A stretch of DNA of 32,332 nt from Acidobacteriota bacterium (GCA_021833665.1 JAKBES010000011.1:1-32332); one strand, 5' to 3'. Counted from the first letter of the stretch, positions 13,868 to 30,956 are shown. Program-made: numbers and translations. The notes: generated from the sequence alone by a model not told the origin.

Positions 13868-15454
13868 ATGAGGAAGATTGGACTAGGGGCCGTTCTTGCC
13901 GTGCTCCTCGTGCCCATGGGCCTCATGGCCCAGAGCAACGAGGAACTCATGAAGCAGATCGAACAACTCAAGCAGCAGCTCCAGAGCCTCGAGCAGAAGG
14001 TCTCTGCTCAACAGGCCGCGCCGGCTCCCGAGGAGCAGGTGAAGGATCTGGACAACCGCCTCACCAAGGTCGAGATCAAGACCGCCGGCGACAACATCTC
14101 GTGGGGCGGCGACATGCGCGTCCGCTTCGACAACCAGAGCTGGCACCTCAACCCTTACCAGCAGGTCATGGGCTTCAATCCCCAGACGGGCATGCCCATC
14201 ACCCAGCAGGTGCCCGCGCAGAACTGGGCCAACCCCATGCAGTGGTCCCTGCGCCTGCGCCTCAAGATGAACGCCAACGTGACGGACAACCTCAAGTTCA
14301 TGGGCCGCCTCTCCATGTACAAGCTCTACGGCGGCGCCGACGTGCCCATCTTCAACGGCCAGCCCAACACCGTTTACAACGGCTTCAACTCGGTGCGCGT
14401 GCCCAGCAACGACGTTCTGCACGTGGAGCGCGCCCTGCTGCGCTACGATTTCCCCAACGCCCCCTTCACCCTGGCCTTCGGCCGCATGAACACCAGCGAC
14501 GGCCCCCCCCTGGAAATCCGGGAAGGGACCGAGCGCCAGGCGACCCCCATGGCCATCATGGTGAACGCGGAGGTTGACGGGTTCCACATCGACTACCACA
14601 TGGACAAACTGGGCCTGCCCGAGGGCACCACCTTCGGCGTCTGCGCCGGCATCGGCTACGAGTCCGGGCTCGGCGGCGGCGGCCAGGTGAGCAGCTCCTA
14701 CACCATGACCCCCTTCGGCATGGGCTCCATCAACGGCATGAAGGACAGCTCCGTCATAGGCTTCATCTATGACATGCCCCTGCTTTTCCAGGTGGGCAAT
14801 ACGGTGAACAGCGCCCGCTTTATGCTCGGCTACAACCGCTTCGGCAACATGACCGACATCCCCTTCGGCTCCCTCATCAACTTCCCCATCCCCGGGCCCT
14901 ACGCCCAGCCTTCCCCCCAGTACGTGACGGCCACCAACAACCTGGGCGACATGGATCAGTGGGGCATCACCTGGGAGCACAACATCGGTGACACCTTCAC
15001 CTACTTCCTGGCGGGCGGCTACATCAAGAGCCATCCCAACGGCAAGGTGAGCCAGTACGGCTTCGGCGGCCTCCTCGGCGACCCCACCCACAGCAAGACC
15101 GGCACCGCCTACTACGCCGGTGTCAAGTGGACCCCCGTGCCCATGTTCGACCTGGGCGTCGAGTTCAACCACGGCTCGCCCCGCTGGTTCACCTACACCC
15201 CCAGCTCCGGCGAAGTGGGCGACAAGCTCGCGGCCCGCGGCGACGTGTGGGAAGGCTACATGCACATCAACTTCAACAAGCACGCCTCCATGCGAATCGG
15301 CTACACCTACTACGACTACTCCACGGCCTTCAGCGGCTGGCACATCGCCCCCGGTGACCTGAACTACTACAACCTGAACAACAATGCCGTGAACTTCTAC
15401 GCGTTCCCCAAGACCGTGAAGAACGCGTATCTGCTCTTCGACGCGACCTTCTAG
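13868..15454 (+). CDS. Outer-membrane beta-barrel protein (DUF3373/porin-like)
   Basis: Signal peptide, N-terminal coiled coil (EQLKQQLQSLEQKVSAQQ), ISWGGDMRVRFDN, alternating strands, C-terminal aromatic (LLFDATF). Confidence 0.75.
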   Translation: MRKIGLGAVLAVLLVPMGLMAQSNEELMKQIEQLKQQLQSLEQKVSAQQAAPAPEEQVKDLDNRLTKVEIKTAGDNISWGGDMRVRFDNQSWHLNPYQQVMGFNPQTGMPITQQVPAQNWANPMQWSLRLRLKMNANVTDNLKFMGRLSMYKLYGGADVPIFNGQPNTVYNGFNSVRVPSNDVLHVERALLRYDFPNAPFTLAFGRMNTSDGPPLEIREGTERQATPMAIMVNAEVDGFHIDYHMDKLGLPEGTTFGVCAGIGYESGLGGGGQVSSSYTMTPFGMGSINGMKDSSVIGFIYDMPLLFQVGNTVNSARFMLGYNRFGNMTDIPFGSLINFPIPGPYAQPSPQYVTATNNLGDMDQWGITWEHNIGDTFTYFLAGGYIKSHPNGKVSQYGFGGLLGDPTHSKTGTAYYAGVKWTPVPMFDLGVEFNHGSPRWFTYTPSSGEVGDKLAARGDVWEGYMHINFNKHASMRIGYTYYDYSTAFSGWHIAPGDLNYYNLNNNAVNFYAFPKTVKNAYLLFDATF

Positions 15455-15472
15455 AACCCTCCATACCCTTAT

Positions 15473-15505
15473 GGCCGGGGGGCTCCGAGCCCCCCGGCCT
15501 CTTTC
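15473..15505 (+). terminator. Terminator or attenuating hairpin after the porin-like gene
   Basis: ggccggggggct-ccg-agccccccggcc followed by tcttt. Confidence 0.7.
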
Positions 15506-15525
15506 AACCGGCGGGGGAGAGAGCG

Positions 15526-17715
15526 ATGGGAGCGAATCCAATGGACCGTAGAACGTTCATGCAAGTGACCGGCGCAGGCGCCGCCGCCACGGCCCTGATC
15601 ACCCAGACTGGATGCCTAAAATACTTTGAGAAGGGCACGGCGCAGGAGGCCGCGCCCACGGTGGTTCCCACCACCTGCGAGGTGTGCCCGAACAAATGTT
15701 CGGTGCTGGCGGTGGCGGAGGGCGGCGTGGTTCACAAGCTCAACCCGAACGCCGAGAGCCCGCGATCGAGAGGCATGCTCTGCGCCCGCGGGAACGCCGC
15801 CATCAAACAAGTCTATGACCCCGATCGTATCAAGCAGCCATTGATTCGCGCCGGCGCCAGAGGCGAGGGGAAATGGCGCGCGGTCTCCTGGGATGAAGCC
15901 TGGGACTACGCCGCCAAGAAGCTTTCAGAGGTCAAATCGAAGTACGGCCCCGAGGGAACCTTGTGGTCCTCCACGGAGGGGTTCCAAGAGGTCTTCTTCA
16001 AGAACCTCGGCCTGGCCCTGGGCTCGCCCAACATCGTCCGCCACCCCACCCTGTGCCTCGCTTCCGTGAACCTGGCCTACTCGGCCACCTTCGGGACCGT
16101 CCCCGCCTTCGACATGGAGAACGCCGACTACGTCATCATGTCCGGCGCAAACCGGTTCGAGGCCATCATCATCCCCGACACCATGGACCTCATCGGCTCC
16201 GTCATGCTCAAGAAGGCCAAGCTCGTCTACCTGGACCCGCGCTTCACGGTGACGGCCGCCAAGGCCGACCACTGGTTCCCCATCCGGCCCGGGACCGATC
16301 TCGCCTTCATCCTCGCCATGATCAACGTCATCGTGGGTGAGGGCAGGTACGACAAGGACTTCGTCGCCACCTATACGACGGGCTTCGACAAGCTCTCCGA
16401 CCACGTGCGCCAATACACGCCCGACTGGGCCGAGAAGGAAACGGAGATCGCCGCCCGGGACATCGTCCGCACGGCCCGGGAGTTCGCCGACGCCGCGCCG
16501 CGCGCCGTCTACTACGCGGGCCGCCGCAGCTCCTGGTACACCAACGACTTCCAGATGCGGCGCGCCCAGGCCATCCTCAACGCCATCGTGGGCAACTGGG
16601 ACCGCGAGGGAGGCATGGTGCCCAACGCCAAGATCTCCATGGGCGAATACCTCTTCCTCCCGTGGGACGATCCCAAGGCGGGGCGCGTGGACGAGATCGA
16701 CAAGAATTTCCCCCTCTCCGCCAAGGGCGACGGCGCCTATCTCAAGCTTCGGGAGAACGTGCTCTCGGGGCAGCCCTATCCGGTGAAGGGCTGGATGGTC
16801 TACAAGCAGGATCCCATGAACGCCCTGCCGGAGCAGGCCAAGACCGTCAAGATGCTCAAGCAGATGGACTTCGTGGGCGTCATCGACTTCCAGATGAGCG
16901 ATACGGCCTGGTACGCGGACGTGGTGTTCCCAGAATCTCACTACCTGGAGCGCACGGACCCCATGGAGATGATGCCGGGCATCTGGCCCGCCGTCGTCTA
17001 CCGGCAGCAGGTGGTGAAGCCCATCCACGACACCAAGCCCAACCTGGAGATCATTCAGGGCCTGGCCAAGCGCCTCAACCTCTCGGACTACTTCGACTAC
17101 ACGATGAAGGACTGGGTCGAGGCGCAGGCGAAGGACGTTCCCGTGGAGAACGCCTTCGACCACCTCCAGAAGCACGGTGTGGTTACCACCGGTGGCTTCC
17201 CGAAATACGGCACGACGCTCAAGCCGGACCACCGGTTCGTCACCAAGAGCGGGAAGATCGAGCTTTTCTCCGACCGGCTCCAGGAAAGCGGCTACGATCC
17301 GCTCCCCGTGTACAAGCCACCCGTGGAGCCCCAGCCGGGGCAGTTCCGCGTGGTCCTGGGCAGGCGGGCCTACTACACCCACGCGAACAACACGAACAAT
17401 CCGTGGCTTCACGAGTTCGCCCCCGAAAACCACCTCTGGATCAATCCCGAACCGGCGCAGCGGATGGGGATCCAGACGGGAGACCTCCTGGAGGTTTCCA
17501 GCAGGGTGGGGACCGTGCGGATCAAGGCGCGCGTCACCGACGAGATCCGTCCCGACTGCGTGTTCATGCTCCACGGGTTCGGCAAGCGGTCGCAGTGGCA
17601 GAAGCTGGCCTATGACAACGGCGCCAGCGACGCCCAGATTCTCGAAACGGCGTGGGACCAGGTCTCGGGCAACGCGGCGTTCCACGAAACCTTCGTGAAC
17701 ATCCGCAAGGTCTGA
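15526..17715 (+). CDS. Molybdopterin (bis-PGD) oxidoreductase catalytic subunit, polysulfide/thiosulfate-reductase-like (PsrA/PhsA type), Tat-exported
   Basis: Tat motif DRRTFMQ; C-x2-C-x3-C-x27-type Fe-S motif (CEVCPNKC...MLC); DMSO-reductase-family motifs; candidate Cys Mo ligand in RHPTLCLAS. Confidence 0.88.
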   Translation: MGANPMDRRTFMQVTGAGAAATALITQTGCLKYFEKGTAQEAAPTVVPTTCEVCPNKCSVLAVAEGGVVHKLNPNAESPRSRGMLCARGNAAIKQVYDPDRIKQPLIRAGARGEGKWRAVSWDEAWDYAAKKLSEVKSKYGPEGTLWSSTEGFQEVFFKNLGLALGSPNIVRHPTLCLASVNLAYSATFGTVPAFDMENADYVIMSGANRFEAIIIPDTMDLIGSVMLKKAKLVYLDPRFTVTAAKADHWFPIRPGTDLAFILAMINVIVGEGRYDKDFVATYTTGFDKLSDHVRQYTPDWAEKETEIAARDIVRTAREFADAAPRAVYYAGRRSSWYTNDFQMRRAQAILNAIVGNWDREGGMVPNAKISMGEYLFLPWDDPKAGRVDEIDKNFPLSAKGDGAYLKLRENVLSGQPYPVKGWMVYKQDPMNALPEQAKTVKMLKQMDFVGVIDFQMSDTAWYADVVFPESHYLERTDPMEMMPGIWPAVVYRQQVVKPIHDTKPNLEIIQGLAKRLNLSDYFDYTMKDWVEAQAKDVPVENAFDHLQKHGVVTTGGFPKYGTTLKPDHRFVTKSGKIELFSDRLQESGYDPLPVYKPPVEPQPGQFRVVLGRRAYYTHANNTNNPWLHEFAPENHLWINPEPAQRMGIQTGDLLEVSSRVGTVRIKARVTDEIRPDCVFMLHGFGKRSQWQKLAYDNGASDAQILETAWDQVSGNAAFHETFVNIRKV

Positions 17716-17725
17716 GGGGACGACG

Positions 17726-18283
17726 ATGGCTGACCAAAAGAAAAAGAAGCGCTACGCGCTCGTGCTGGACTCGAAGAAGTGCATCAACTGCAAGGCCTGC
17801 GTGGTGGCCTGCAAGGCTGAAAACGGCGTCCCCGTGGGCAAGTTCCGGAACTGGATCGACGAGGAGAAGCGGGGTTCCTACCCCAAGCTCCTCATGACCT
17901 TCGATCCCGGCCAGTGCATGCACTGCGAGAACCCCTCCTGCGTCCGGGTCTGCCCCACGGGAGCCTCGTGGCAGAGATCGGACGGCATCGTTCTGGTGAA
18001 CTATTCGGACTGCATCGGCTGCCGCTACTGCATGATCGCCTGTCCTTACAACGCCCGCTACTTCCGGGAGGACCTGGGGGTCGTGGACAAGTGCACCTTC
18101 TGCGTGCAGAGGGTGGACAAGGGACAGCCGCCGGCGTGCGTGGAGACCTGCCCCTCCAAGGTGCGGGTCTTCGGAGACCTGGACGACCCGCAGGGAGAGC
18201 TCCACGATCTGCTCTCCACGCGGCGCTACCTGGTCAAGAAAGCGGAAACGGGCAACGGCCCGCAGTTGTATTACCTGCTGTAG
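17726..18283 (+). CDS. 4Fe-4S ferredoxin-type electron-transfer subunit (PsrB/PhsB-like)
   Basis: Multiple CxxCxxCxxxC-type clusters: CINCKACVVACKAE, CMHCENPSCVRVCPTG, CIGCRYCMIACPYN, CTFC...CVETCP. Confidence 0.92.
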   Translation: MADQKKKKRYALVLDSKKCINCKACVVACKAENGVPVGKFRNWIDEEKRGSYPKLLMTFDPGQCMHCENPSCVRVCPTGASWQRSDGIVLVNYSDCIGCRYCMIACPYNARYFREDLGVVDKCTFCVQRVDKGQPPACVETCPSKVRVFGDLDDPQGELHDLLSTRRYLVKKAETGNGPQLYYLL

Positions 18284-18293
18284 GGAGAGAGCC

Positions 18294-19253
18294 ATGCAGA
18301 CCATCGAATGGGGTTTCCTGATCGTCAATTACCTATTCCTGGGCGGGCTTTCGGCGGGCATCTTTTTCGTCTCGGCCCTCGCCACCTACCTCCAGGAGAA
18401 CGGCCAGCCGGCCTATCCGCGCATCGCCAAGTACGGAGCCATGATGGCCCCCTGGCCCGTGGCCTTCGGGTCGTTCCTCCTGATCTTCGACCTGGGCAAC
18501 TGGTACCGGTTCTACAAGCTCTTCGTCACCTTCCGCTGGGAGAGCCCCATGTCCATCGGCTCCTGGCTGCTCATGATCTTCACGACCCTCACGTTCCTTT
18601 ACTTCTGGTCGTGGTTGCCCGCCGAGTTCCGCCAGAAGCTCTTCGCCATGGTCCCCAAACGCCTGGCCTTCCTCAACCGCCTGAACGTGGACCTCTCCGG
18701 GTGGAGCCGTCCCCTGGCCATGGCGGGATTTCCCTTCGCCGTGGGCGTGGGCATTTACACGGGCGTGCTCCTGGGAGCCGTCCAGGCCCGGCCCTTCTGG
18801 AACACCAACCTGGTGGCCCAGATGTTTCTCTTCTCGGCCCTCTCCACGGGCACGGCGGCTCTCATCCTGGCCCTTTCCTTCAACAAGAAGAGCCTCGATT
18901 TCAAGCAGGTGCGGTTCCTCTACACGCTGGACATCTGCTTCATCATCCTGGAGTTCTTCATCGTCCTGCCCTACCTCATCCACGGGAAGCTCTCGGTCCT
19001 GGCCGTGCAGGAGGCGCTGAAGCTCATCCTGGGCGGCCCGTACACGCTCGCCTTCTGGCTCTTCTTCCTGGGGCTGGGGCTCCTGCTCCCGCTGGCCATC
19101 GAGCTGTGGGAGATGGCCCCCGTCTTCCGGCAGAAGAGCACGATCCATCACAACAAACCCCTGGCCTCCGCGGCCGCGCTCTTGGTTCTGGCGGGCGGCT
19201 ACCTGTTGAGGTTCATCTTCGTCTATGCCGGCCAAATCAGCGCGTTCAAGTGA
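18294..19253 (+). CDS. NrfD/PsrC-family polytopic membrane subunit
   Basis: About 8 hydrophobic segments; N-terminus WGFLIVNYLFLGGLSAGIFFVSALA typical of NrfD; gene order A-B-C. Confidence 0.88.
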   Translation: MQTIEWGFLIVNYLFLGGLSAGIFFVSALATYLQENGQPAYPRIAKYGAMMAPWPVAFGSFLLIFDLGNWYRFYKLFVTFRWESPMSIGSWLLMIFTTLTFLYFWSWLPAEFRQKLFAMVPKRLAFLNRLNVDLSGWSRPLAMAGFPFAVGVGIYTGVLLGAVQARPFWNTNLVAQMFLFSALSTGTAALILALSFNKKSLDFKQVRFLYTLDICFIILEFFIVLPYLIHGKLSVLAVQEALKLILGGPYTLAFWLFFLGLGLLLPLAIELWEMAPVFRQKSTIHHNKPLASAAALLVLAGGYLLRFIFVYAGQISAFK

Positions 19254-19272
19254 GGGAGGAGGCTTGGGAACG

Positions 19273-19926
19273 ATGGACAACAGCGGCAGAGAGGATCTGA
19301 TAGGCGCCCTCTCGGAGGTCTTCAGCGTCCTGTCCGAGGTGTTCCTGGAGCCCGAGGCGGACGTGAAGGTACGGCTCGCGGGCGTGATCGGGCGCTGTCC
19401 CGAGAGGTGTCCCGGGCTGGACGGCCTTCCCGGGGCTCTGGCCGCCATGGTCGAGCACTGCGGCAAGCCTCAGCACCAGGCCGTGGAGTACGTCCGCCTC
19501 TTTCTCCACGGCAGCGGGAACGCCACGGTGCACCCTTACGAGTCGGTGTTCACCTACAACCGGCTCATGGCCCCCGAGTGCCTCGGCGACCTCAAGGCCC
19601 TGCATGAATCCGCGGGCATACGGCCCCGCAAGGGGCTCACCTTGCCGCAGGACCACCTGGGGCTCGAGCTGGAATTCCTGTCGTATATCCTCGCCGGATT
19701 CGCGCAGGCTGAGGACGCGGCGGAGCAGGAGCGATGGCGTGAGACGGCCGGGGTCCTCCTGCGCCGGCACCTGGTCCCCTTCGGGCGCCAGTTCGTGAGG
19801 AAGCTGGGGGATGCGCAGCCCAACCCCTACTTCGCCAGCGCGGGAGACGCCCTCGTGGAGGGGCTCCACGCGTGCACCCTCCTTTTGGGCATTGACATGG
19901 AACCGTCCGCAGGTTCCGATCAATAG
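19273..19926 (+). CDS. TorD-like molybdoenzyme chaperone
   Basis: Helical protein following A-B-C; HPYESVF and LGLELEFLSYIL motifs characteristic of the TorD/DmsD family. Confidence 0.75.
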   Translation: MDNSGREDLIGALSEVFSVLSEVFLEPEADVKVRLAGVIGRCPERCPGLDGLPGALAAMVEHCGKPQHQAVEYVRLFLHGSGNATVHPYESVFTYNRLMAPECLGDLKALHESAGIRPRKGLTLPQDHLGLELEFLSYILAGFAQAEDAAEQERWRETAGVLLRRHLVPFGRQFVRKLGDAQPNPYFASAGDALVEGLHACTLLLGIDMEPSAGSDQ

Positions 19927-19932
19927 AAGTTC

Positions 19933-19965
19933 GGGGGCGGGCCTTTGGCGGGCCCGCCCCCTTTC
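19933..19965 (+). terminator. Terminator between convergent operons
   Basis: gggggcgggcc (19933-19943) / ggcccgccccc (19951-19961) then ttt. Confidence 0.7.
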
Positions 19966-19993: not shown

Positions 19994-20509
19994 TCAGGAT
20001 TGCTCCTCCTGCCACCAGCCCAGCCTGGGCGACTCGGCGCAGTCGTGGGAGGGCAGATAGGGCTTGATGTCCAGCAGGGGCGTGTGGTCGCAAAGGTCGG
20101 CACCCAGGACCAGAAGGTCTCCCCCCTCGCGCTTCACCAGCTCCACGAGGGTGAGGCCGAGGGGATTGGGCCGCCTCGGCGACCGGGTGGCGAAGACCCC
20201 ATGGTCCATGTCCCGCTCCTTGGGCTTCACCAGAAGGTCGAAGCCGTCGCTCCTGTGAAGGAGAACGATCAGCCATAGGTGGCTGAATCCTTCCAGATCA
20301 TCGAGCCCCGGCACGTAATCGGGAAAGACGTGGACCGTGGACCTCCCGATGCGCTTGAAGTGGCGCGGCGCTTCCACGGGCGTTGAAAAGGGGGCGCGTA
20401 TGACGCCGATGGGCCGAACGCGCCAGCTCAGGCTCGGCCCGCCCCCTTCGGGGCACGGGGCCTCCCGCTCGGCCTCGTGTTCAAGGTCTGGCGGCTTGGG
20501 CCGGCTCAT
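19994..20509 (-). CDS. TrmO/TsaA-family (UPF0066) SAM-dependent protein
   Basis: RPIGVIRAPFSTPVEAPRH and ATRSPRRPNPLGLTLVELV signatures; start overlaps the end of the upstream cytochrome b gene. Confidence 0.85.
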   Translation of the reverse strand: MSRPKPPDLEHEAEREAPCPEGGGPSLSWRVRPIGVIRAPFSTPVEAPRHFKRIGRSTVHVFPDYVPGLDDLEGFSHLWLIVLLHRSDGFDLLVKPKERDMDHGVFATRSPRRPNPLGLTLVELVKREGGDLLVLGADLCDHTPLLDIKPYLPSHDCAESPRLGWWQEEQS

Positions 20510-21134
20510 GGCCTTCCCCCCTCCCCGCTTCATAGCCCGTGATCATGGCTCTCAACAGGCTCCAAGGTGTCGTGCCCGTGGTGGCGAGGTAGATGTGGCC
20601 GATGAGGAAGGCGAGGAAGAGGTAGGCGCCCAGGGTGTGGGCCGGGCCAAGAACCCTTAGTCCGCCGACGCGTTCGAAGGTGGCCGGCCAGCGGTTGGCG
20701 CCCCACATGAGGACGCCCGTGATGATCTGATAGGGCAGCAGGATGTTCAGGAGCGCCAGGTAGGTGACCTTCTGAAGGGGATTGAGCTTGTGCCTGGGGT
20801 CCGTCTCGTAAGGGTGCGGCTCGCCCTTGAAGATGCCGTACAGGTAGAAGCGCGCTTGCCGAACCGCGCCCCCCGTGAAGTCGTCCATCTTGGGCAGGAA
20901 GTGGTGATATTTGTCGGCCGTCAAATGGTAGAACAGGCCGAGGAAGGCGTTCAGAATCAGGGCGAATCCGATCCAGGAGTGCCAGCTCACGGCGTGGGCC
21001 ATGGACCCGAGGATGCCGAAGCGGTCGGGGTAGTGGATGGCGAAGCCGCTGAGGATCAGCATGATCATGGCCGCCGCCTGGAGCCAGTGCCAGATCCGCT
21101 CGTGAAGGGCGTAGAGGGGTTTGGACGCGCTCAT
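20481..21134 (-). CDS. Cytochrome b, HydC/FdnI-like (thiosulfate reductase/formate dehydrogenase gamma type)
   Basis: HERIWHWLQAAAMIMLILSGFAIHYP and later membrane His residues; ATGA overlap with the octaheme cytochrome gene. Confidence 0.85.
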   Translation of the reverse strand: MSASKPLYALHERIWHWLQAAAMIMLILSGFAIHYPDRFGILGSMAHAVSWHSWIGFALILNAFLGLFYHLTADKYHHFLPKMDDFTGGAVRQARFYLYGIFKGEPHPYETDPRHKLNPLQKVTYLALLNILLPYQIITGVLMWGANRWPATFERVGGLRVLGPAHTLGAYLFLAFLIGHIYLATTGTTPWSLLRAMITGYEAGRGEGHEPAQAARP

Positions 21135-23263
21135 GACCTGCCTCCAAAGAGACGGATGGCTCCGTGAATGAGGGCGAAGAGCAGGGCTCCCACGACGCTC
21201 AGCCAGCCCAGCCACTCGATCCACGTGGCCCTGCTGTTGCCGATGATGTAGAAGGAACTGAGGAGGGGCCTATTGTTGAAGGTTGGGTTTTTCCCTTCGT
21301 AGTTGACGACGTTGATGGGCTTCCCGCCGTAGATGACGGGCACGTCCTTGGGCAGGGCGTCGTCCAGGTCGAGGGGACGGTGGAGGATGCTGTTTTTGGC
21401 GTGGCAGGCGGTGCAGTCCTTGGTGGCCTGTTCCTTCCCAACGATGCTGTGGCTCATGGCCCAGGGGACGATCTCGATGCGCAGCTCGGGTTCGGAGATG
21501 CCCGCGTATTTCTGCAGGAGGCCCTTCACGAGGGCGATCTTCTCAGGCGTGGTGTAGAGGGCTTGAGCGCGGTCGATGATGCCGTCCTTGTCCCCGAACT
21601 CCTTCACGATCTCGGGGCGGTAGGTCCAGCCGTTGGATTTGTCCCAGCTCTCGAAGAAGGCCTTCTGAATCTGCCAGGTGAACACGGGACGGCCCTTGGC
21701 CTTGTCAAACCAGTAGACGCCCGTGATGAGGTTGGTGGGCCGGATCTCCAGATGCCCGTCCTTGGCGGGCGTGGGGACGTAGGCCGGCTGGAAGCCCGTG
21801 ACCTTGGAGTCGGGATCCACGATGTCGCCGTCGATGCCGCGGAAGGTGATCCGGCTCGTGCCCGTGTCCATCAGGAAGCCCCACTCATCGCTGCGGTAGG
21901 CCCAGAAATGGATGGCGGGGATGTGGCAGGTTTGGCAGGCGAGGGCCTTGAAGTGAAGGCTCTTGTAGGGCAGGAAGGCGTGGGTCCTTTCCGCGTCGTG
22001 GCAGTCGGCGCATCCCCTCATGGTGTTGTGGCGGGTCATGTTCACCGTCTCGGGGGGGATGTTGCCCCGGGCGAAGTTGTGGTCGGGGCGCTTGAGGTAG
22101 ATGGCGATGTCCTCGCTCACGGGTTTGTATTTCAGATACTTCTGGCTGTCCTCCTGGATCTTGCGGCCGGGGTTGTTGGGCGAGAAGTGGCAATCGATGC
22201 AAATAAGCCCTTTGGCGGCGTGCACGTCCCAGGGAAAATTCATCTTGTCCTTGCCCACGATGTGAGGGGAGACGGTGTCGCTGATCTTGGCGCCGTTGTA
22301 GATCCATCCTGCCTTCTCCGTGCCCCTCATGATGTCGGCGTGCTGGATGGGCTGGATGGTGGTGGCATCGCGCGCGGTGAAGCCGTGGCACTTGGCGCAG
22401 TTTTCGAGGGTGGGGTCGGACAAGTTGAGGACATCCTGCTTCACCGTTCCGTCGGCGTTGAACGCGGCGCGGTCATAGAGGAAGGCGCCTTTGGCGTCCT
22501 TGGTCACGATGCCCGTCTGAGAGAGGGTGGCGTTGTTGGCCCACCTGAAGTTGCCCGCGCTCATCTCCTCCCGCCGAGCCCCGCGGCTGGCCTTGGGCAC
22601 GTGGCAGAGGAAGCAGTCGCCTTCCGCCGTGCCGCTCTTCTCCCAATCCCACGGCACGACCTTCCCCGACTCCCGGTCCCTGATGGTATAGCTCGGGTCC
22701 ATGGGGCCCTTGGCTTTCGCGTCGGGGGACAGGAACTTGCGGCCGTAGAGGTCGTATTCGGAGATGCCTCCGCCCGTGTGGCAGACGCCGCACTTGGTGA
22801 GCCACTCGGGCTGGCTCATGTCCGCGTCCGCCGCCTCCGTGATGCCCGCGTGGGTGAGCTGCCGGTTGGGGATGATGGAGAATTTGCCGAACATGCCCGG
22901 CGATGAGTTGAAAGGAGCTATCCCGTGGGCTTTCAGGAGGGCCGGATCCATTTCGTTCTTGCCCTGCTGGAAGTGGAAGCTGTTGGTGATGAAGTCGTAG
23001 TCGTGGCAGTCCCCGCCGCACGTCTGGCGCGTGCTGATGGGGTTGCCCGTGTCCAGCACGTTCTTCCCCGCCGCGTCCTTCAGCACCAGGGCCGGATGGA
23101 GCAGCTTGGGGGGAGCGGGCTGATCGCCTGCTTGCTTCATTCCCGGGTCCTGCCCCGCCATGGTGGCGATGCCCAGCACCGCCGCCAGGACCAGGAAGGC
23201 GGGGGACACACGTATTCTGCCGTCCCGCCGCCCGTGGAGGCGGGACCTTGCATCACGAATCAT
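21131..23263 (-). CDS. Octaheme c-type cytochrome with C-terminal TM anchor
   Basis: Heme motifs CGGDCH (CX3CH), CGVCH, CFLCH, CAKCH, CIDCH, CADCH, CQTCH, CTACH; N-terminal signal; C-terminal WLGWLSVVGALLFALIHGAIRLF. Confidence 0.88.
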   Translation of the reverse strand: MIRDARSRLHGRRDGRIRVSPAFLVLAAVLGIATMAGQDPGMKQAGDQPAPPKLLHPALVLKDAAGKNVLDTGNPISTRQTCGGDCHDYDFITNSFHFQQGKNEMDPALLKAHGIAPFNSSPGMFGKFSIIPNRQLTHAGITEAADADMSQPEWLTKCGVCHTGGGISEYDLYGRKFLSPDAKAKGPMDPSYTIRDRESGKVVPWDWEKSGTAEGDCFLCHVPKASRGARREEMSAGNFRWANNATLSQTGIVTKDAKGAFLYDRAAFNADGTVKQDVLNLSDPTLENCAKCHGFTARDATTIQPIQHADIMRGTEKAGWIYNGAKISDTVSPHIVGKDKMNFPWDVHAAKGLICIDCHFSPNNPGRKIQEDSQKYLKYKPVSEDIAIYLKRPDHNFARGNIPPETVNMTRHNTMRGCADCHDAERTHAFLPYKSLHFKALACQTCHIPAIHFWAYRSDEWGFLMDTGTSRITFRGIDGDIVDPDSKVTGFQPAYVPTPAKDGHLEIRPTNLITGVYWFDKAKGRPVFTWQIQKAFFESWDKSNGWTYRPEIVKEFGDKDGIIDRAQALYTTPEKIALVKGLLQKYAGISEPELRIEIVPWAMSHSIVGKEQATKDCTACHAKNSILHRPLDLDDALPKDVPVIYGGKPINVVNYEGKNPTFNNRPLLSSFYIIGNSRATWIEWLGWLSVVGALLFALIHGAIRLFGGRS

Positions 23264-23304
23264 GAGTTTTCTCCTTGGCTCCGTTCAGCCCCTAGTGGTT
23301 CGCG

Positions 23305-24234
23305 TCAGCGGGCCGCCTCTTGCAGGGCCTTGATGAGATGGTCGAAGAGCGCGGTGTAGGACTTGGCCCCAGGGATCCCTTCGATGGACGAGGCCACTTC
23401 GATGACCTTGAGGCCAGGCTCCTGCCGGAACGCCTTGCCGTATTCAGGGGGAGTGCTGGGGTCCACGATGACGATCTGGGCCTTCATCTCCTTCACGTGG
23501 TCAACGAGGAGCTTGGGCGTGGGGAGGACGCCAGGGGTTCCCTTGCACACCACGAAGGTGGGTCCGCCGAGCTTGGAAAAGTTCTGCCAGCCGCACTGGG
23601 CGCTGAAGATGCGCAGATTGGAGAGGGGCTCCAGTTCCTTCTTCCAGCGGACGATGTCTCCGGCCACGGCCTTCTGGAAGGCCTCGGCGTTGGCGAGGAA
23701 GTAGGCCCTCTTGTCGGGTCTCAGGTCGCCCAGGCCCTCCGCCGCCGCCCGGGCGATGGTGGCTCCGTTCTGGGGGTTGAGCCAGAAGAAGGGGTCCCCT
23801 TCCATCTGGGAGGGGTCCACGTATCCGAAGCACGTGGAGGTGGGGACGTTGACCCTCGCCGCGCCTTTGGAGACGTCGATCCAGCCCGCGCCCGCTTCCT
23901 TCGATGCTGCGGCCGGCGTGCCCTTGTCTAGGGCCGCGTTGATGGCCGCCGACTCGTTGAAGAATCCCGTCCAGACCACCGCGTCGGCCTTGGCCAGCCT
24001 CGCGAGCACGGCGGGCTCCACGGCCAGGTTCTTTCTGAGGATGCACCCCTTGAACAGGCTGAAGGTGTCCACCTGGTTGCCGCCCACGACTCTGACGATG
24101 GCCTCGATGTCCGGCTCCGTCACGGCCACCTGCAGTTTTCCTCCCGGCCCGGCCAGCACGGCCAAGGTTCCAAGGGCCCACGCCGCCACCGCGCAGAGGG
24201 CCAGACGGCCCCATGAACTCCGTGTCGTTGTCAT
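23305..24234 (-). CDS. ZnuA-like (cluster A-I) metal-ABC-type solute-binding protein, ligand-divergent orphan
   Basis: LARLAKADAVVWTG, GDPFFWLNPQNG, IVIVDPSTPPEYGKAF follow the ZnuA/TroA pattern; no ABC ATPase or permease in the window. Confidence 0.75.
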   Translation of the reverse strand: MTTTRSSWGRLALCAVAAWALGTLAVLAGPGGKLQVAVTEPDIEAIVRVVGGNQVDTFSLFKGCILRKNLAVEPAVLARLAKADAVVWTGFFNESAAINAALDKGTPAAASKEAGAGWIDVSKGAARVNVPTSTCFGYVDPSQMEGDPFFWLNPQNGATIARAAAEGLGDLRPDKRAYFLANAEAFQKAVAGDIVRWKKELEPLSNLRIFSAQCGWQNFSKLGGPTFVVCKGTPGVLPTPKLLVDHVKEMKAQIVIVDPSTPPEYGKAFRQEPGLKVIEVASSIEGIPGAKSYTALFDHLIKALQEAAR

Positions 24235-24602
24235 CTCACACCTCCGGGGGCACAAGGCCCTGCGTGTCCGTCCACGCCGGGGAGCTTGAAACGCGGCTCC
24301 CCCAGCGCTCCGCACCGATACGCCGAAATCACTTCCATCACTTCGCCCGTCAGGCCTTGAACCACGTCCACGCCCCGGGACCGAATATCCTCTTCCATGT
24401 CCTTGCCGATGGCTCCGCAGAGGAGGACGTCTACGCCCATGGCCTGGAGCTTGGGCGCCCGCTCGCTGGGTCCGAGGCCGCGGCACGTCCGCTGGCCGGC
24501 GGACCTGACGCCCCGCTCGTCCACCCGCCAGAGGGTCACCCTGTGGCAGAAGTCGAAGGTCGGAGCAACCCTTCCGTGAAATTCCGGGACAGCCAGAAGC
24601 AT
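24231..24602 (-). CDS. NifX/NafY-like dinitrogenase Fe-Mo-cofactor-binding domain protein (COG1433 type)
   Basis: MLLAVPEFHGRVAPTFDFCHRV; GVDVLLCGAIGKDMEEDIRSRGVDVVQGLTGEVMEVISAYRCG; ATGA overlap with the next gene. Confidence 0.75.
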   Translation of the reverse strand: MLLAVPEFHGRVAPTFDFCHRVTLWRVDERGVRSAGQRTCRGLGPSERAPKLQAMGVDVLLCGAIGKDMEEDIRSRGVDVVQGLTGEVMEVISAYRCGALGEPRFKLPGVDGHAGPCAPGGVR

Positions 24603-24624
24603 GGCACCCTCCGCCCCAGCTAAA

Positions 24625-24639
24625 GCAAGGGCCGTACCA
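24625..24639 (-). promoter_or_regulatory. Candidate sigma-54 (-24/-12) promoter of the NifX-like/SBP/cytochrome operon
   Basis: Minus-strand TGGTAC-GGCCC-TTGC versus TGGCAC-N5-TTGC; GG/GC spacing correct. Confidence 0.7.
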
Positions 24640-24716
24640 CTCGCTCATTCCGCTTCTAACGTATGGCTGATGTCTTGAGAGGAACGCATCAGCAGGTGAA
24701 GAGGATCCCTTGAAGC

Positions 24717-24731
24717 GGTGCAAGGTGCACC
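24717..24731. promoter_or_regulatory. Candidate enhancer (UAS) 1: GGTGCA-AGG-TGCACC
   Basis: Perfect 6+3+6 palindrome about 110 bp upstream of the predicted sigma-54 start site. Confidence 0.7.
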
Positions 24732-24747
24732 GATCTAAAGGGCGAAG

Positions 24748-24762
24748 ATTGCAAAGTGCAAT
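24748..24762. promoter_or_regulatory. Candidate enhancer (UAS) 2: ATTGCA-AAG-TGCAAT
   Basis: Perfect 6+3+6 palindrome sharing the TGCA-N3-TGCA core, 31 bp centre-to-centre from UAS 1. Confidence 0.7.
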
Positions 24763-24775
24763 GGCGCGCCGAGAA

Positions 24776-26167
24776 TCAGCTCGGGTGCGGGGGGGTGCCC
24801 TTCCTCAGGCGCCGCCATAGGGTGGTCTTGTGGATGCCCAGTTCGCGCGCCGCGGCGCTCCGGTTGCCCTTATGGCGATCGAGGACGGAGAGCATGTGCG
24901 CGCTCTCCATCTCCCGGAGGTTGCCGGCGCCGAGGGGCGCCTCTCCCGGGGCCGGCGGGCCGGACTCGGCGCACACGGCCGCGGGCAGGTGCTCGGGGAG
25001 GACCAGGCCTTGGCGGCACAGGATGAAGGCGTGCTCGACGGAGTTCTCAAGTTCGCGGATGTTGCCCGGCCACGGGTAGCGAAGGAGGCATCGCATGGCT
25101 TCCGGCGTGAAACCCTGAATGTCGCGGCCCCGAAGATGGTTGAGCTTGTCCAAGACGTGCATGGCCAGAAGAGAGATGTCTTCGCGCCGGTCGCGCAAGG
25201 GAGGAATTGCAATTTGCACCACATTGAGCCGGTAGTACAGATCTTCCCTGAAACGCCCCGCCCGCACTTCGGCCAGAAGGTTCTTGTTGGTGGCCGCCAG
25301 GAAGCGCACGTCGGCGTGCAAGGTTCGGTTGGAGCCCAGGGGCTCGAAGGTCTTTTCTTGCAGGACCCGAAGGAGGCGCACCTGCATAGCGGGGGAGACG
25401 TCCCCGACCTCATCCAAGAAGAGGGTGCCGCCCTGGGCCGCGGAAAGGCGCCCGAGCTTGTCCCGTTTGGCGTCGGTGAAGGCCCCGGCCCGATAGCCGA
25501 AGAGCTCCGATTCCAGCAAGGCGTCGGGCAGGGCTCCGCAGTTGACCACCACCAGGGGCCCGGAAGCCCGGGGGCTGAGGTGGTGCAGGGCGCGGGCCAT
25601 GAGCTCCTTGCCCGTGCCGCTCTCCCCCGTGATGAGGACCGTGCAGTCGCTCTCCGCCACCTGGGGGAGCAGCTCGAAGATCTCCCGCATCTTGTGGTGC
25701 GCCGAAAGCATGTCCTGGAAGGCGAACCGTTTTTCCACCTGCCGCCGCAGGTCCTCCACCAGGGAGAGGTCGCGGAAGGTTTCCACCCCGCCCACCACGT
25801 GGCCCTTCGCGTCCTTGAGCAGCGCCGTGCTCACGCTGATGGGGACCTTCTGGGCTTTGGAGTTCAGGATGCGCACCGACTGGTTGATGACGGGGCGGCC
25901 CGTGGCAAGGGTCCTCTTCAGCGCGCACGAGCCTTCGCAGATATCGGCCTTGAAAACCTCCCAGCATGGCCGCCCCACGGCTTCCTCTTCGCTCGTGCCG
26001 GTGATGGTGGCGGCGGCCCTGTTGAAAGAGGTGACCTTGAACTCGCTGTCCACCGTAAAGACCCCGTCGTTGATGGAGTCGAGGATGGTGCGAAGGCCCC
26101 GGTCCCAGGCCAGGCCGGCCTTGCGTTCTCTGGCGGATTCACGGGAGGGGAGAGCCTTCTCGGTCAT
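24776..26167 (-). CDS. PAS-AAA+-Fis sigma-54-dependent regulator (regulator 1)
   Basis: GESGTGKE Walker A, GGTLFLDEVGD Walker B, GAFTDA loop, HTH GNRSAAARELGIHKTTLWRRLRK; PAS with Cys motif. Confidence 0.92.
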   Translation of the reverse strand: MTEKALPSRESARERKAGLAWDRGLRTILDSINDGVFTVDSEFKVTSFNRAAATITGTSEEEAVGRPCWEVFKADICEGSCALKRTLATGRPVINQSVRILNSKAQKVPISVSTALLKDAKGHVVGGVETFRDLSLVEDLRRQVEKRFAFQDMLSAHHKMREIFELLPQVAESDCTVLITGESGTGKELMARALHHLSPRASGPLVVVNCGALPDALLESELFGYRAGAFTDAKRDKLGRLSAAQGGTLFLDEVGDVSPAMQVRLLRVLQEKTFEPLGSNRTLHADVRFLAATNKNLLAEVRAGRFREDLYYRLNVVQIAIPPLRDRREDISLLAMHVLDKLNHLRGRDIQGFTPEAMRCLLRYPWPGNIRELENSVEHAFILCRQGLVLPEHLPAAVCAESGPPAPGEAPLGAGNLREMESAHMLSVLDRHKGNRSAAARELGIHKTTLWRRLRKGTPPHPS

Positions 26168-26183
26168 GGTTGCATTATGCACC
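26168..26183. promoter_or_regulatory. Candidate autoregulatory site ggTTGCA-TTA-TGCAcc at the regulator 1 start codon
   Basis: Same TGCA-N3-TGCA core as the two UAS, directly abutting the ATG. Confidence 0.55.
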
Positions 26184-26366
26184 GATTCGAGTACCGGGTA
26201 AAGGGGAAGGACGAGAGCGGCAAGCGGAGGGGAGGTGGTCGGATTGAGGGGACAGGGGACAAGCGCAAGGGAAGGTGAGTGGGGCTTCCTCCTCGCCTCA
26301 CCGCTTCGGCACCCCGCGTGCTGATCCATTGCGGCACCAAGGCTGGCGCGATTCATGGCCCGCGCC

Positions 26367-28181
<1,815 letters not shown>

Positions 28182-28248
28182 CACGCGCACCTCAGATTCA
28201 CACAGTAGATTCCCGTGCGGGGTGAGTCAAGGCAAGCTCAAGATGTAC

Positions 28249-28671: not shown

Positions 28672-28881
28672 TCGCCATGGCGGCACGGGATTGCCCTTTC
28701 AACCTTTTGAACCCCGGAGCATCTTAGAGGGTGTTCGGATCAAAGGCCGGACGAAGGCGGTAGCGGACAACGGATGGCAAAGGAGCAGAGGACGGGGAGC
28801 TGGTGAAGTGAGGGCCGCGCAGCGTCTCGCGTCCCGAACAGATCGTTCCCGGCAATGCACGTCCTCCAAGGAGCAGCGACC

Positions 28882-29343
28882 ATGAACGGTCCCGAACTCA
28901 TCGCGGTAAACCTTTCCGAAGGCGGCATCCCCAAACTGCCCGTTCAGCGGGCTCAGGTTTTGGAGCGGGGGCTTGAGGGTGACGGACAAGCCCACGCCAA
29001 GCACACCAAGCCCAACCGCGCCCTCTCCCTGCTCCATCAGGAGGTCATCGCGCAACTGGCGGCGGAAGGATTCGCCGTAGGGCCGGGCGCCTTGGGTGAG
29101 AACCTCACGGTTCAGGGCTTGTACGATCTTCCGCTCGCCGTGGGCACCCGGTTGGCCTTCGCGGGAGGCGTGGAAATCGAGCTGAGCGAGGCCAGGAAGC
29201 CGTGTTTCGTCCTGGATGCGGTCGATCCCAAACTCAAGGAAGTGACGGTGGGCCGTCTGGGATGGATGGCGCGGGTGGTAAAGCCGGGGTGGATCGGTCC
29301 CGGCGAGGCCATTCGTGTTTCCTACCCCGCGCCTGCGGTCTGA
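28882..29343 (+). CDS. MOSC domain protein
   Basis: LPVQRAQVLERGLEGDGQAHAKHTKPNRALSLL, GALGENLTVQGL, RKPCF typical of MOSC proteins. Confidence 0.85.
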   Translation: MNGPELIAVNLSEGGIPKLPVQRAQVLERGLEGDGQAHAKHTKPNRALSLLHQEVIAQLAAEGFAVGPGALGENLTVQGLYDLPLAVGTRLAFAGGVEIELSEARKPCFVLDAVDPKLKEVTVGRLGWMARVVKPGWIGPGEAIRVSYPAPAV

Positions 29344-29361
29344 CAACGAAAGGGTATCCCC

Positions 29362-29973
29362 TTGGCCGGTCCGAACGCAGGGATCATTCTGGGCGCCGTC
29401 CTGGCCGGCGGCGAAAGCCGCAGGATGGGGAGGCCCAAGGAGGGCGTCCTCCTCCCCGGAGGGAGACCCATGATCGAACCCATTCTGGATGCCATGCGCG
29501 AGGCCTTCGGATCGGTGATCGTGGCGGGCGCCTGCGCGGGGTACGAATGCGCGGGGCGGCCGGGGGTCCTGCACATCCGGGACGGCCAGCCGGGCCTCGG
29601 GCCGCTGGCTGGACTGGAAGCCCTCCTCGCCTCGGGCGCCGCGGATGGCTACGTGGTGGCCGCGTGCGACCAGCCCATGGTGACGGCGGTCCTCCTTCGC
29701 CGTCTCGCGAAAGAGGCGGGGCCGCGGGGACGGTTTTTCAAGGCGGTCCGGAGCGGCGAGCACCTCGACCCCCTTCCCGGCTATTTCCCTTCCTGCTGGC
29801 TGGCGTCCGTCACGGCGGCCCTTGCCGAAGGACGGCGTTCGCTGAGGGCGCTGGTGCGGTCAGCGAGGGTGCGGTGGGTGCCCCTGGAGGACTCGGACGC
29901 GGGCAAGCTGGCCAGCATCAACGCCCCCGAAGATCTTAGACTCCTACCCGGGGTACAGGGTGTGAGACCATGA
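29362..29973 (+). CDS. mobA: Molybdenum cofactor guanylyltransferase
   Basis: LAGGESRRMGRPKEGVLLPGG; GPLAGLEALL; AACDQPMV; TTG start. Confidence 0.88.
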   Translation: MAGPNAGIILGAVLAGGESRRMGRPKEGVLLPGGRPMIEPILDAMREAFGSVIVAGACAGYECAGRPGVLHIRDGQPGLGPLAGLEALLASGAADGYVVAACDQPMVTAVLLRRLAKEAGPRGRFFKAVRSGEHLDPLPGYFPSCWLASVTAALAEGRRSLRALVRSARVRWVPLEDSDAGKLASINAPEDLRLLPGVQGVRP

Positions 29974-30956
29974 GCGCCATGATCGATCCCTTCGGCCGCC
30001 AACACGTCTACCTCAGGCTCGCCTTAACCCACCGGTGCAACCTGAACTGCACGTACTGCCGCCCGTCCGGGTGCGGCACGGTCACCACCGGCCCCATCCT
30101 TCCTTCCGGCAGCATTCTCCGCCTGGTCCGCATCTTCGCGGCCCTTGGCATCTGCAAAGTGCGCCTCACGGGCGGAGAGCCCACCCTAAGGCCCGGCCTC
30201 TTGGATCTGGTGTCAAAGATCGCCGCGGTGGAAGGCATCGGGACCCTCGCCCTCACCACGAACGGGGTCACCCTCGGGGGCCTCGCCGCCCCCCTCCGGC
30301 GGGCCGGGGTCGAGAACCTGAACGTGAGCCTCGACAGCCTCCGCCGGGAACGGTTTCTGAAGATCACGGGCCGGGACCTCCTCCCCGCGGTCCTCAAGGG
30401 CATCAGCGCGGCACTGGAGGCGGGATTCGAACCCCTCAAGCTCAACACGGTCGTCATGGGCGGGGTGAACGACGACGAACTGCTGGAGTTCGTGGAGCTG
30501 GCACGGAGCAGGCCCGTGAACATCCGCTTCATCGAGTACATGCCGTTCCGGGAGAACGGGTGGAGCCGGGAGGGCTTCGTGTCCCACGAGCGCATGCGCG
30601 AGCGCATCGAACGGGTTCACCGGCTCGTCCCCGTGGGCCAAGGCGAGCATACGGGCGGCGTGGCCAAGGACTTTTCCGTGGAGGGCTTCCGGGGCCAAAT
30701 CAGCTTTATCACGCCCCTCTCGGACGTCTTCTGCGACCGCTGCAACCGGCTGAGGGTGACCGCCGACGGCAAACTGAAAACGTGCCTTTTCGCGCCCGCC
30801 GGACTCGACCTCGCGAAGGCGCTCGCGCGCGAAGCGAGCGACGGCGCCGTGGCGCGCCTCATCGTCGATGCCCTCGCCTCCAAGCCCGAGAAGCACCCCG
30901 AGGCGGAGGATCTGAGGGCCGGCCAGGATCTGCCCATGAACGAAATAGGAGGCTGA
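29970..30956 (+). CDS. moaA: GTP 3',8-cyclase (radical SAM)
   Basis: CNLNCTYC radical-SAM motif; RLTGGEPTLR; FIEYMPF; C-terminal CDRCNRLRVTADGKLKTCLF; ATGA overlap with mobA. Confidence 0.93.
   Translation: MSAMIDPFGRQHVYLRLALTHRCNLNCTYCRPSGCGTVTTGPILPSGSILRLVRIFAALGICKVRLTGGEPTLRPGLLDLVSKIAAVEGIGTLALTTNGVTLGGLAAPLRRAGVENLNVSLDSLRRERFLKITGRDLLPAVLKGISAALEAGFEPLKLNTVVMGGVNDDELLEFVELARSRPVNIRFIEYMPFRENGWSREGFVSHERMRERIERVHRLVPVGQGEHTGGVAKDFSVEGFRGQISFITPLSDVFCDRCNRLRVTADGKLKTCLFAPAGLDLAKALAREASDGAVARLIVDALASKPEKHPEAEDLRAGQDLPMNEIGG

Follow-up and report, generated by a model that had tools for sequence, protein, structure and literature searches.

The window, by which we mean the whole stretch of DNA analysed, is 32,332 nt long and comes from an Acidobacteriota bacterium (GCA_021833665.1 JAKBES010000011.1:1-32332). 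At 19994-24775 it carries five close-set genes on the minus strand, all of which are confirmed in the sequence, and in the Pfam and NCBIfam profile searches each of the five proteins falls in the family first guessed for it. The genes and the control elements around them are as follows.

24776-26596 (open reading frame), minus strand: EBP1, an activator with PAS, sigma-54 AAA+ and Fis-type HTH parts (profile matches)
24750-24760, minus strand: upstream activator palindrome TGCACTTTGCA, 121 nt upstream of the sigma-54 site
24719-24729, minus strand: upstream activator palindrome TGCACCTTGCA, 90 nt upstream of the sigma-54 site and 31 nt from TGCACTTTGCA
24639-24624, minus strand: sigma-54 promoter TGGTACGGCCCTTGCT, GG-N10-GC (sequence and comparison of leaders)
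24231-24602, minus strand: NifX-like protein, 123 aa (PF02579, 45 bits, cutoff 26.3)
23305-24234, minus strand: four-cysteine ZnuA-fold periplasmic protein with Cys64, Cys135, Cys214 and Cys230 (PF01297, 81 bits, cutoff 29; alignments; Foldseek match to ZnuA; subfamily score gap)
21131-23263, minus strand: octaheme cytochrome c, 710 aa, with a C-terminal membrane anchor carrying HGxxR (heme motifs and one TM helix)
20481-21134, minus strand: cytochrome b of HydC/FdnI/PhsC type, 217 aa (PF01292, 94 bits; NF011582, 138.5 bits, cutoff 204)
19994-20509, alternative start 20533, minus strand: TrmO-family protein (TIGR00104, 125.7 bits, cutoff 93.25)
19933-19961, no strand assigned: GC hairpin GGGGGCGGGCCCGCC-AAA-GGCCCGCCCCC (read directly from the sequence)

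The tight packing of the five genes that was claimed in an earlier note on this DNA is borne out: ATGA junctions are present at NifX/ZnuA and at octaheme/cytochrome b, the gap of 41 nt from the ZnuA-like gene to the octaheme gene carries an SD, and the start of the TrmO-like gene falls within the cytochrome b gene. The strong GC hairpin parts the 3' end of the operon from a convergent psr operon. At the other end, the sigma-54 site lies 21 nt ahead of the NifX-like start, and the two palindromes upstream of it are of the type TGCA-N3-TGCA, which is usually paired and recurs together with GG-N10-GC sites upstream of homologous operons. The arrangement in one related locus (L016) is the same as in the window, while in the Geothrix-type loci the leader is longer and a spacing of 34 nt separates the palindromes, which lie about 78 nt ahead of a GG-N10-GC site that is unchanged in 10 leaders. 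The promoter together with a palindrome pair at the required spacing is present in 8 of the 13 loci tested, the remaining five having at least one exact palindrome, and this layout appeared in none of 1000 dinucleotide-preserving shuffles at every locus. By this recurrence and this null the promoter, which had been proposed as a candidate, is substantiated.

EBP1, the true start of which is probably later than that of its open reading frame, near 26206 where the conserved part begins, has an orthologue (63-70% identity, 97% within the same genus) immediately upstream in the majority of the related loci with enough sequence on that side, although not in L018 and L065. At the threshold used, orthologues are found in 12 of 27 genomes, all 12 of which also carry the four-cysteine ZnuA-like protein. 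With a GG-N10-GC promoter, upstream activator sites and an adjacent enhancer-binding regulator all in place, the operon and its sigma-54 regulation, also put forward in the earlier note, are well supported, and it is expected that EBP1 would bind the paired palindromes. Note also that in Geothrix (L020-L028, L072) a conserved, GC-rich leader of about 230-270 nt lies between the sigma-54 promoter and the ZnuA-like gene; since it has no Rfam match and its covariation and pair support is weak, no riboswitch is claimed.

EBP1, the ZnuA-like protein and the multiheme c and cytochrome b pair travel together in the Holophagaceae (Geothrix, Holophaga) and in the family of the window, the conserved set being seen in about 16 loci. 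The order EBP1, ZnuA-like protein, multiheme cytochrome, cytochrome b is constant across the Geothrix, Holophaga and other Acidobacteriota loci, whereas the NifX-like and TrmO-like genes, present in many such loci, shift in position, the former standing first or between the TrmO and cytochrome genes and the latter after the ZnuA gene or last. The five-gene order pointed to in the earlier note is thus kept for the ZnuA-like and cytochrome genes and not for the two small ones. The NifX-like protein is conserved in L004, L016, L017 and L062, and because the NifX-like and ZnuA-like genes do occur with the cytochrome pair elsewhere, the idea that they belong with it survives. Since the set co-travels across lineages, we regard it as a system rather than a chance cluster, and the moving about of the small genes within the cluster suggests a functional linkage rather than an inherited neighbourhood alone. 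For the small genes themselves, cytoplasmic handling of a metal or sulfur cofactor by the NifX-like protein and RNA modification by the TrmO-like protein may be guessed; the TIGR00104 cutoff that the window TrmO-like protein passes is not reached by the Geothrix versions (59-66 bits).

Two loci deviate in content. At L017 (2203-4055) there is no octaheme gene and only a partial cytochrome b between the ZnuA and TrmO genes, a decayed copy or an assembly error, while in L063 and L064 the octaheme (34%) and cytochrome b are present without ZnuA, NifX, TrmO and EBP1 genes in the available stretch, so the bare pair occurs alone. Beyond the Acidobacteriota the search consisted of one genome-collection scan with close-relative patterns, which gave hits solely in records under the labels Acidobacteria, Holophaga/Geothrix, Terriglobia or Aminicenantes, and the distribution may be wider than this phylum; a plasmid search for the four-cysteine protein gave no match.

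The ZnuA-like protein belongs to the ZnuA family by its Pfam score and by its predicted fold (pLDDT 76), the best Foldseek match being E. coli ZnuA (2ps3, E 4.7e-13). Alignment with ordinary homologues shows, however, that the three zinc-histidine positions are all replaced (KGYQDPHF to KGCILRKN, NPHFW to DPFFW and TFHDSW to SAQCGW), and the protein is therefore not filed as a zinc-binding ZnuA. Ordinary zinc uptake is ruled out by the missing histidine ligands and by the lack of any ABC permease or ATPase partner among the scanned window genes. In place of the histidines, Cys64, Cys135, Cys214 and Cys230 are invariant in the subfamily, three of them (Cys64, Cys214, Cys230) in or next to the loops of the metal site and Cys135 a little ahead of the position of the second histidine; in the predicted model the Cys64 and Cys135 loops are of low confidence, making the placement of the four sulfurs relative to each other uncertain. 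Across 396 Acidobacteriota genomes the subfamily is set off by a sharp gap, scoring 286-571 bits as against at most 123 bits for ordinary ZnuA. The probable task of the four cysteines is to capture, for use in respiration, sulfur compounds or else a sulfur-loving metal.

The octaheme cytochrome has seven CXXCH motifs and one CX3CH, with exactly sixteen cysteines and none outside the heme motifs, and a single C-terminal TM helix, which together with the cytochrome b agrees with the anchored multiheme c and HydC/FdnI-type pair first described for this locus. The CX3CH at heme 1 (residues 82-87) is a local one-residue insertion (CGGDCH, and CGENCH in L018) where most relatives have CXXCH. In Geothrix this slot is taken by an OTR-family cytochrome with a C-terminal anchor, which scores 556.7 bits on the OTR model TIGR04315 (cutoff 375) and matches Shewanella OTR 1SP3 at 5e-116. 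The window octaheme scores 33 bits on that model, but aligned with the OTR-type relatives it gives an hhalign probability of 99.4 (E 8.6e-22) over its C-terminal two thirds, a match that spans the CQTCHIP heme, the last heme and the anchor, and it has the eight c-type heme motifs of an OTR. The anchor with an invariant histidine, mostly HGxxR, is common to the window-type and Geothrix-type cytochromes. The heme-2 lysine of OTR (CHxGYGxK), which is present in 11 of 16 OTR-type relatives, is replaced in the window by CHTGGGISE, and the extra invariant cysteine of OTR is missing. Thus, in the comparison with OTR that the earlier note had suggested, distant homology holds, and the octaheme is by its sequence a distant relative, but with the model score and the lysine both against it we do not file it as an OTR. 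The window-type proteins have eight invariant non-motif histidines in the periplasmic part, outside the anchor, as would be needed for bis-His ligation of all eight hemes and would suit a role in electron transfer. With the OTR catalytic residues missing, the window octaheme is more likely an electron conduit and may be non-catalytic; its structure prediction has a mean pLDDT of 40. Its partner, the cytochrome b, has the thiosulfate-reductase cytochrome b model (PhsC, NF011582) as best NCBIfam match, at a score under the cutoff that leaves it outside that model. Subunits of FdnI/HydC type lead us to expect that the pair exchanges electrons with menaquinone.

The neighbourhood of the operon in the window includes the following.

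13868-19926, plus strand: operon of a DUF3373 porin, PsrA/PhsA-like protein, PsrB, PsrC (NrfD) and TorD, a possible partner, converging on the five-gene operon (profile matches)
26367-28190, minus strand: EBP2, a second PAS-type sigma-54 activator
28855-30953, plus strand: MOSC, MobA-like and MoaA genes (molybdenum cofactor), in keeping with a molybdoenzyme close by

The order porin-psrABC-TorD recurs in Geothrix and other Acidobacteriota, often followed by an EBP2-like regulator, and since relatives of EBP2 (about 43%) adjoin psr or porin-OTR clusters in Geothrix, EBP2 may control the psr operon.

In another family the four-cysteine ZnuA-like gene stands directly upstream of psrABC (G355; L060, 9068-13783), in a genome where no octaheme was found at the thresholds used, and a second copy stands near cysteine synthase (L059, 6928-14464; L066); the same four cysteines are kept in all of these. 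L059 also has genes for an OYE-type flavoprotein, a ferritin-like protein, DUF134, CGGC and NifX. Elsewhere in the phylum some OTR-cytochrome b pairs have YeeE/YedE sulfur transporters downstream, one of these with a rhodanese domain, or PsrABC in the vicinity. Other pairs have the DUF3373 porin ahead of them, and in some genomes a protein of disulfide reductase-rhodanese type and a PLP enzyme of the Cys/Met kind are nearby. PsrA of the window type is found in 12 of the 12 near-complete genomes with the four-cysteine protein, the three exceptions being 64-86% complete; PsrA is also present in many Geothrix genomes without that protein, and the co-occurrence is confounded by phylogeny. Within Geothrix the presence of the four-cysteine protein tracks OTR plus PsrA exactly (7/7 vs 0/17), a match that probably reflects one clade and is thus not counted as independent proof. 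In an acidobacterial microcosm study otr was up 36-fold with tetrathionate (PMC8528874). OTR also reduces nitrite and hydroxylamine (PMC4484225), so that the substrate may be other than a sulfur compound, and we consider the sulfur assignment of the operon moderately supported. With a context of PsrABC, YeeE/YedE transporters, rhodaneses and PLP sulfur enzymes, and with a bona fide OTR-family cytochrome in the Geothrix slot, metal or cofactor sensing coupled to extracellular electron transfer, as suggested earlier, is not supported as the leading function.

Based on these data, we propose, tentatively and with a confidence somewhat short of even, that the operon serves the respiration of sulfur compounds, coding for a quinol-oxidising branch made up of octaheme and cytochrome b and for a four-cysteine periplasmic capture protein. 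In the proposal, a redox or chemical cue would be sensed by the PAS-containing EBP1, which, sitting on the paired TGCA-N3-TGCA sites, would switch the operon on via sigma-54. The cytochrome b and the C-terminally anchored octaheme c would form an inner-membrane complex that oxidises quinol and passes electrons to the periplasm, where they would reduce tetrathionate, thiosulfate, polysulfide or a similar sulfur compound. The ZnuA-fold protein, its zinc site lost, would bind a sulfane-sulfur species or some other thiophilic ligand in the periplasm through its four cysteines and deliver it to the reductases. It would in this resemble the Wolinella protein Sud, which binds polysulfide in the periplasm on behalf of PsrABC (PMC2628731) and hands it to PsrA. 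For Geothrix, the OTR-type reductase would be the octaheme itself, while in the window, with the octaheme more probably a conduit, the adjacent PsrABC could be the partner. It is noted that the operon, the promoter layout, the conservation of the gene set and the loss of the zinc ligands and of the OTR lysine are read from the sequences themselves, whereas we infer the quinol oxidation, the sulfur substrate, the capture role and the attachment of EBP1 to the palindromes. A bolder form, which we think possible but on the unlikely side, is that the metal-binding ZnuA fold has been turned into a periplasmic carrier of sulfane sulfur with four cysteines. Such a carrier would be controlled by a sigma-54 switch of its own and would supply sulfur reductases of both the heme-based (OTR-like) and the molybdenum-based (Psr) kind; if true, anaerobic respiration would have a sulfur relay of a novel type.

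By contrast, the four-cysteine protein could be a chaperone or sensor for a thiophilic metal, e.g. Cu(I), that matures or protects the reductases and carries no sulfur. The ZnuA fold binds metals, the four invariant cysteines lie in or near the metal loops, a SCO1/SenC gene downstream in L062 is compatible with a copper role, and MccA, a copper-containing octaheme sulfite reductase, is a precedent. However, an MccA-like copper site in the window octaheme is ruled out, there being no non-heme cysteine to hold the copper, the window has no recognisable copper genes, and the paralogues keep company with psrABC and cysteine synthase; we judge this role somewhat unlikely. Still less probable, in our estimate, is that octaheme and cytochrome b act together as a general quinol oxidase of the CbcBA kind, feeding periplasmic cytochromes for extracellular or metal respiration, with the other genes as accessories. 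The anchored multiheme c, the HydC/FdnI-type b and the sigma-54 regulator would all suit it, as would eight hemes that can be bis-His, the absence of the OTR catalytic lysine and the fact that Geothrix are Fe(III) reducers, but the surrounding genes are those of sulfur metabolism, the window shows no recognisable porin-multiheme conduit for the outer membrane and an OTR occupies the Geothrix slot, so that the context lends this reading no support. That selenite or another chalcogen or metalloid oxyanion is the real acceptor, with the four-cysteine protein binding the reduced product, is quite improbable: the Psr clade does include the SrrA selenite reductases (PMC8528874) and four cysteines would be a fitting ligand set for Se(IV) or As(III), but the rhodanese-like neighbours reported as typical for SrrA are not seen beside the window psr genes, and the Ext selenite-operon models match weakly, far under cutoff.

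Under the preferred reading of a sulfur-respiring branch with a capture protein, the locus ties a branch of a well-known metal-binding family, marked by four cysteines and apparently not studied before, to a respiratory module conserved in the Acidobacteriota, and would help to explain how these abundant bacteria use intermediate sulfur compounds in respiration. The in vivo substrate of OTR-type cytochromes and the route of the quinol electrons are still uncertain in the field, and since culturable Geothrix and Holophaga relatives carry the module, its function is directly testable.

Finally, we compare the operon with known systems, to which it would stand as a hybrid of an OTR/CbcBA-type branch and a Sud-like accessory. 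With OTR (TIGR04315/PF11783, PDB 1SP3) the window octaheme has in common the eight hemes, the CQTCHIP heme region and the last heme; it differs in lacking the heme-2 lysine and the extra cysteine, in being membrane-anchored with a cytochrome b partner, and in exceeding the Geothrix OTRs in length by about 170 aa. Geobacter CbcBA, an inner-membrane bc cytochrome reportedly under sigma-54 control, resembles it in architecture, both pairing an anchored multiheme c with a HydC/FdnI-type b, and the window operon differs from it by its accessory genes and its sulfur neighbourhood. The four-cysteine protein has the fold and the Pfam family (PF01297) of the ZnuA/cluster A-I metal-binding proteins, but has four invariant cysteines instead of the zinc histidines and no adjacent ABC transporter genes. 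With Sud of Wolinella polysulfide respiration it may share the role, proposed here, of presenting sulfur in the periplasm to a Psr-type reductase, although Sud is a rhodanese and the ZnuA-like protein is of an unrelated fold. To PsrABC/PhsABC the operon is linked by its cytochrome b, which best matches PhsC, and by the psr operon next door, whereas its own electron-carrying or catalytic subunit is heme-based and not a molybdoenzyme.
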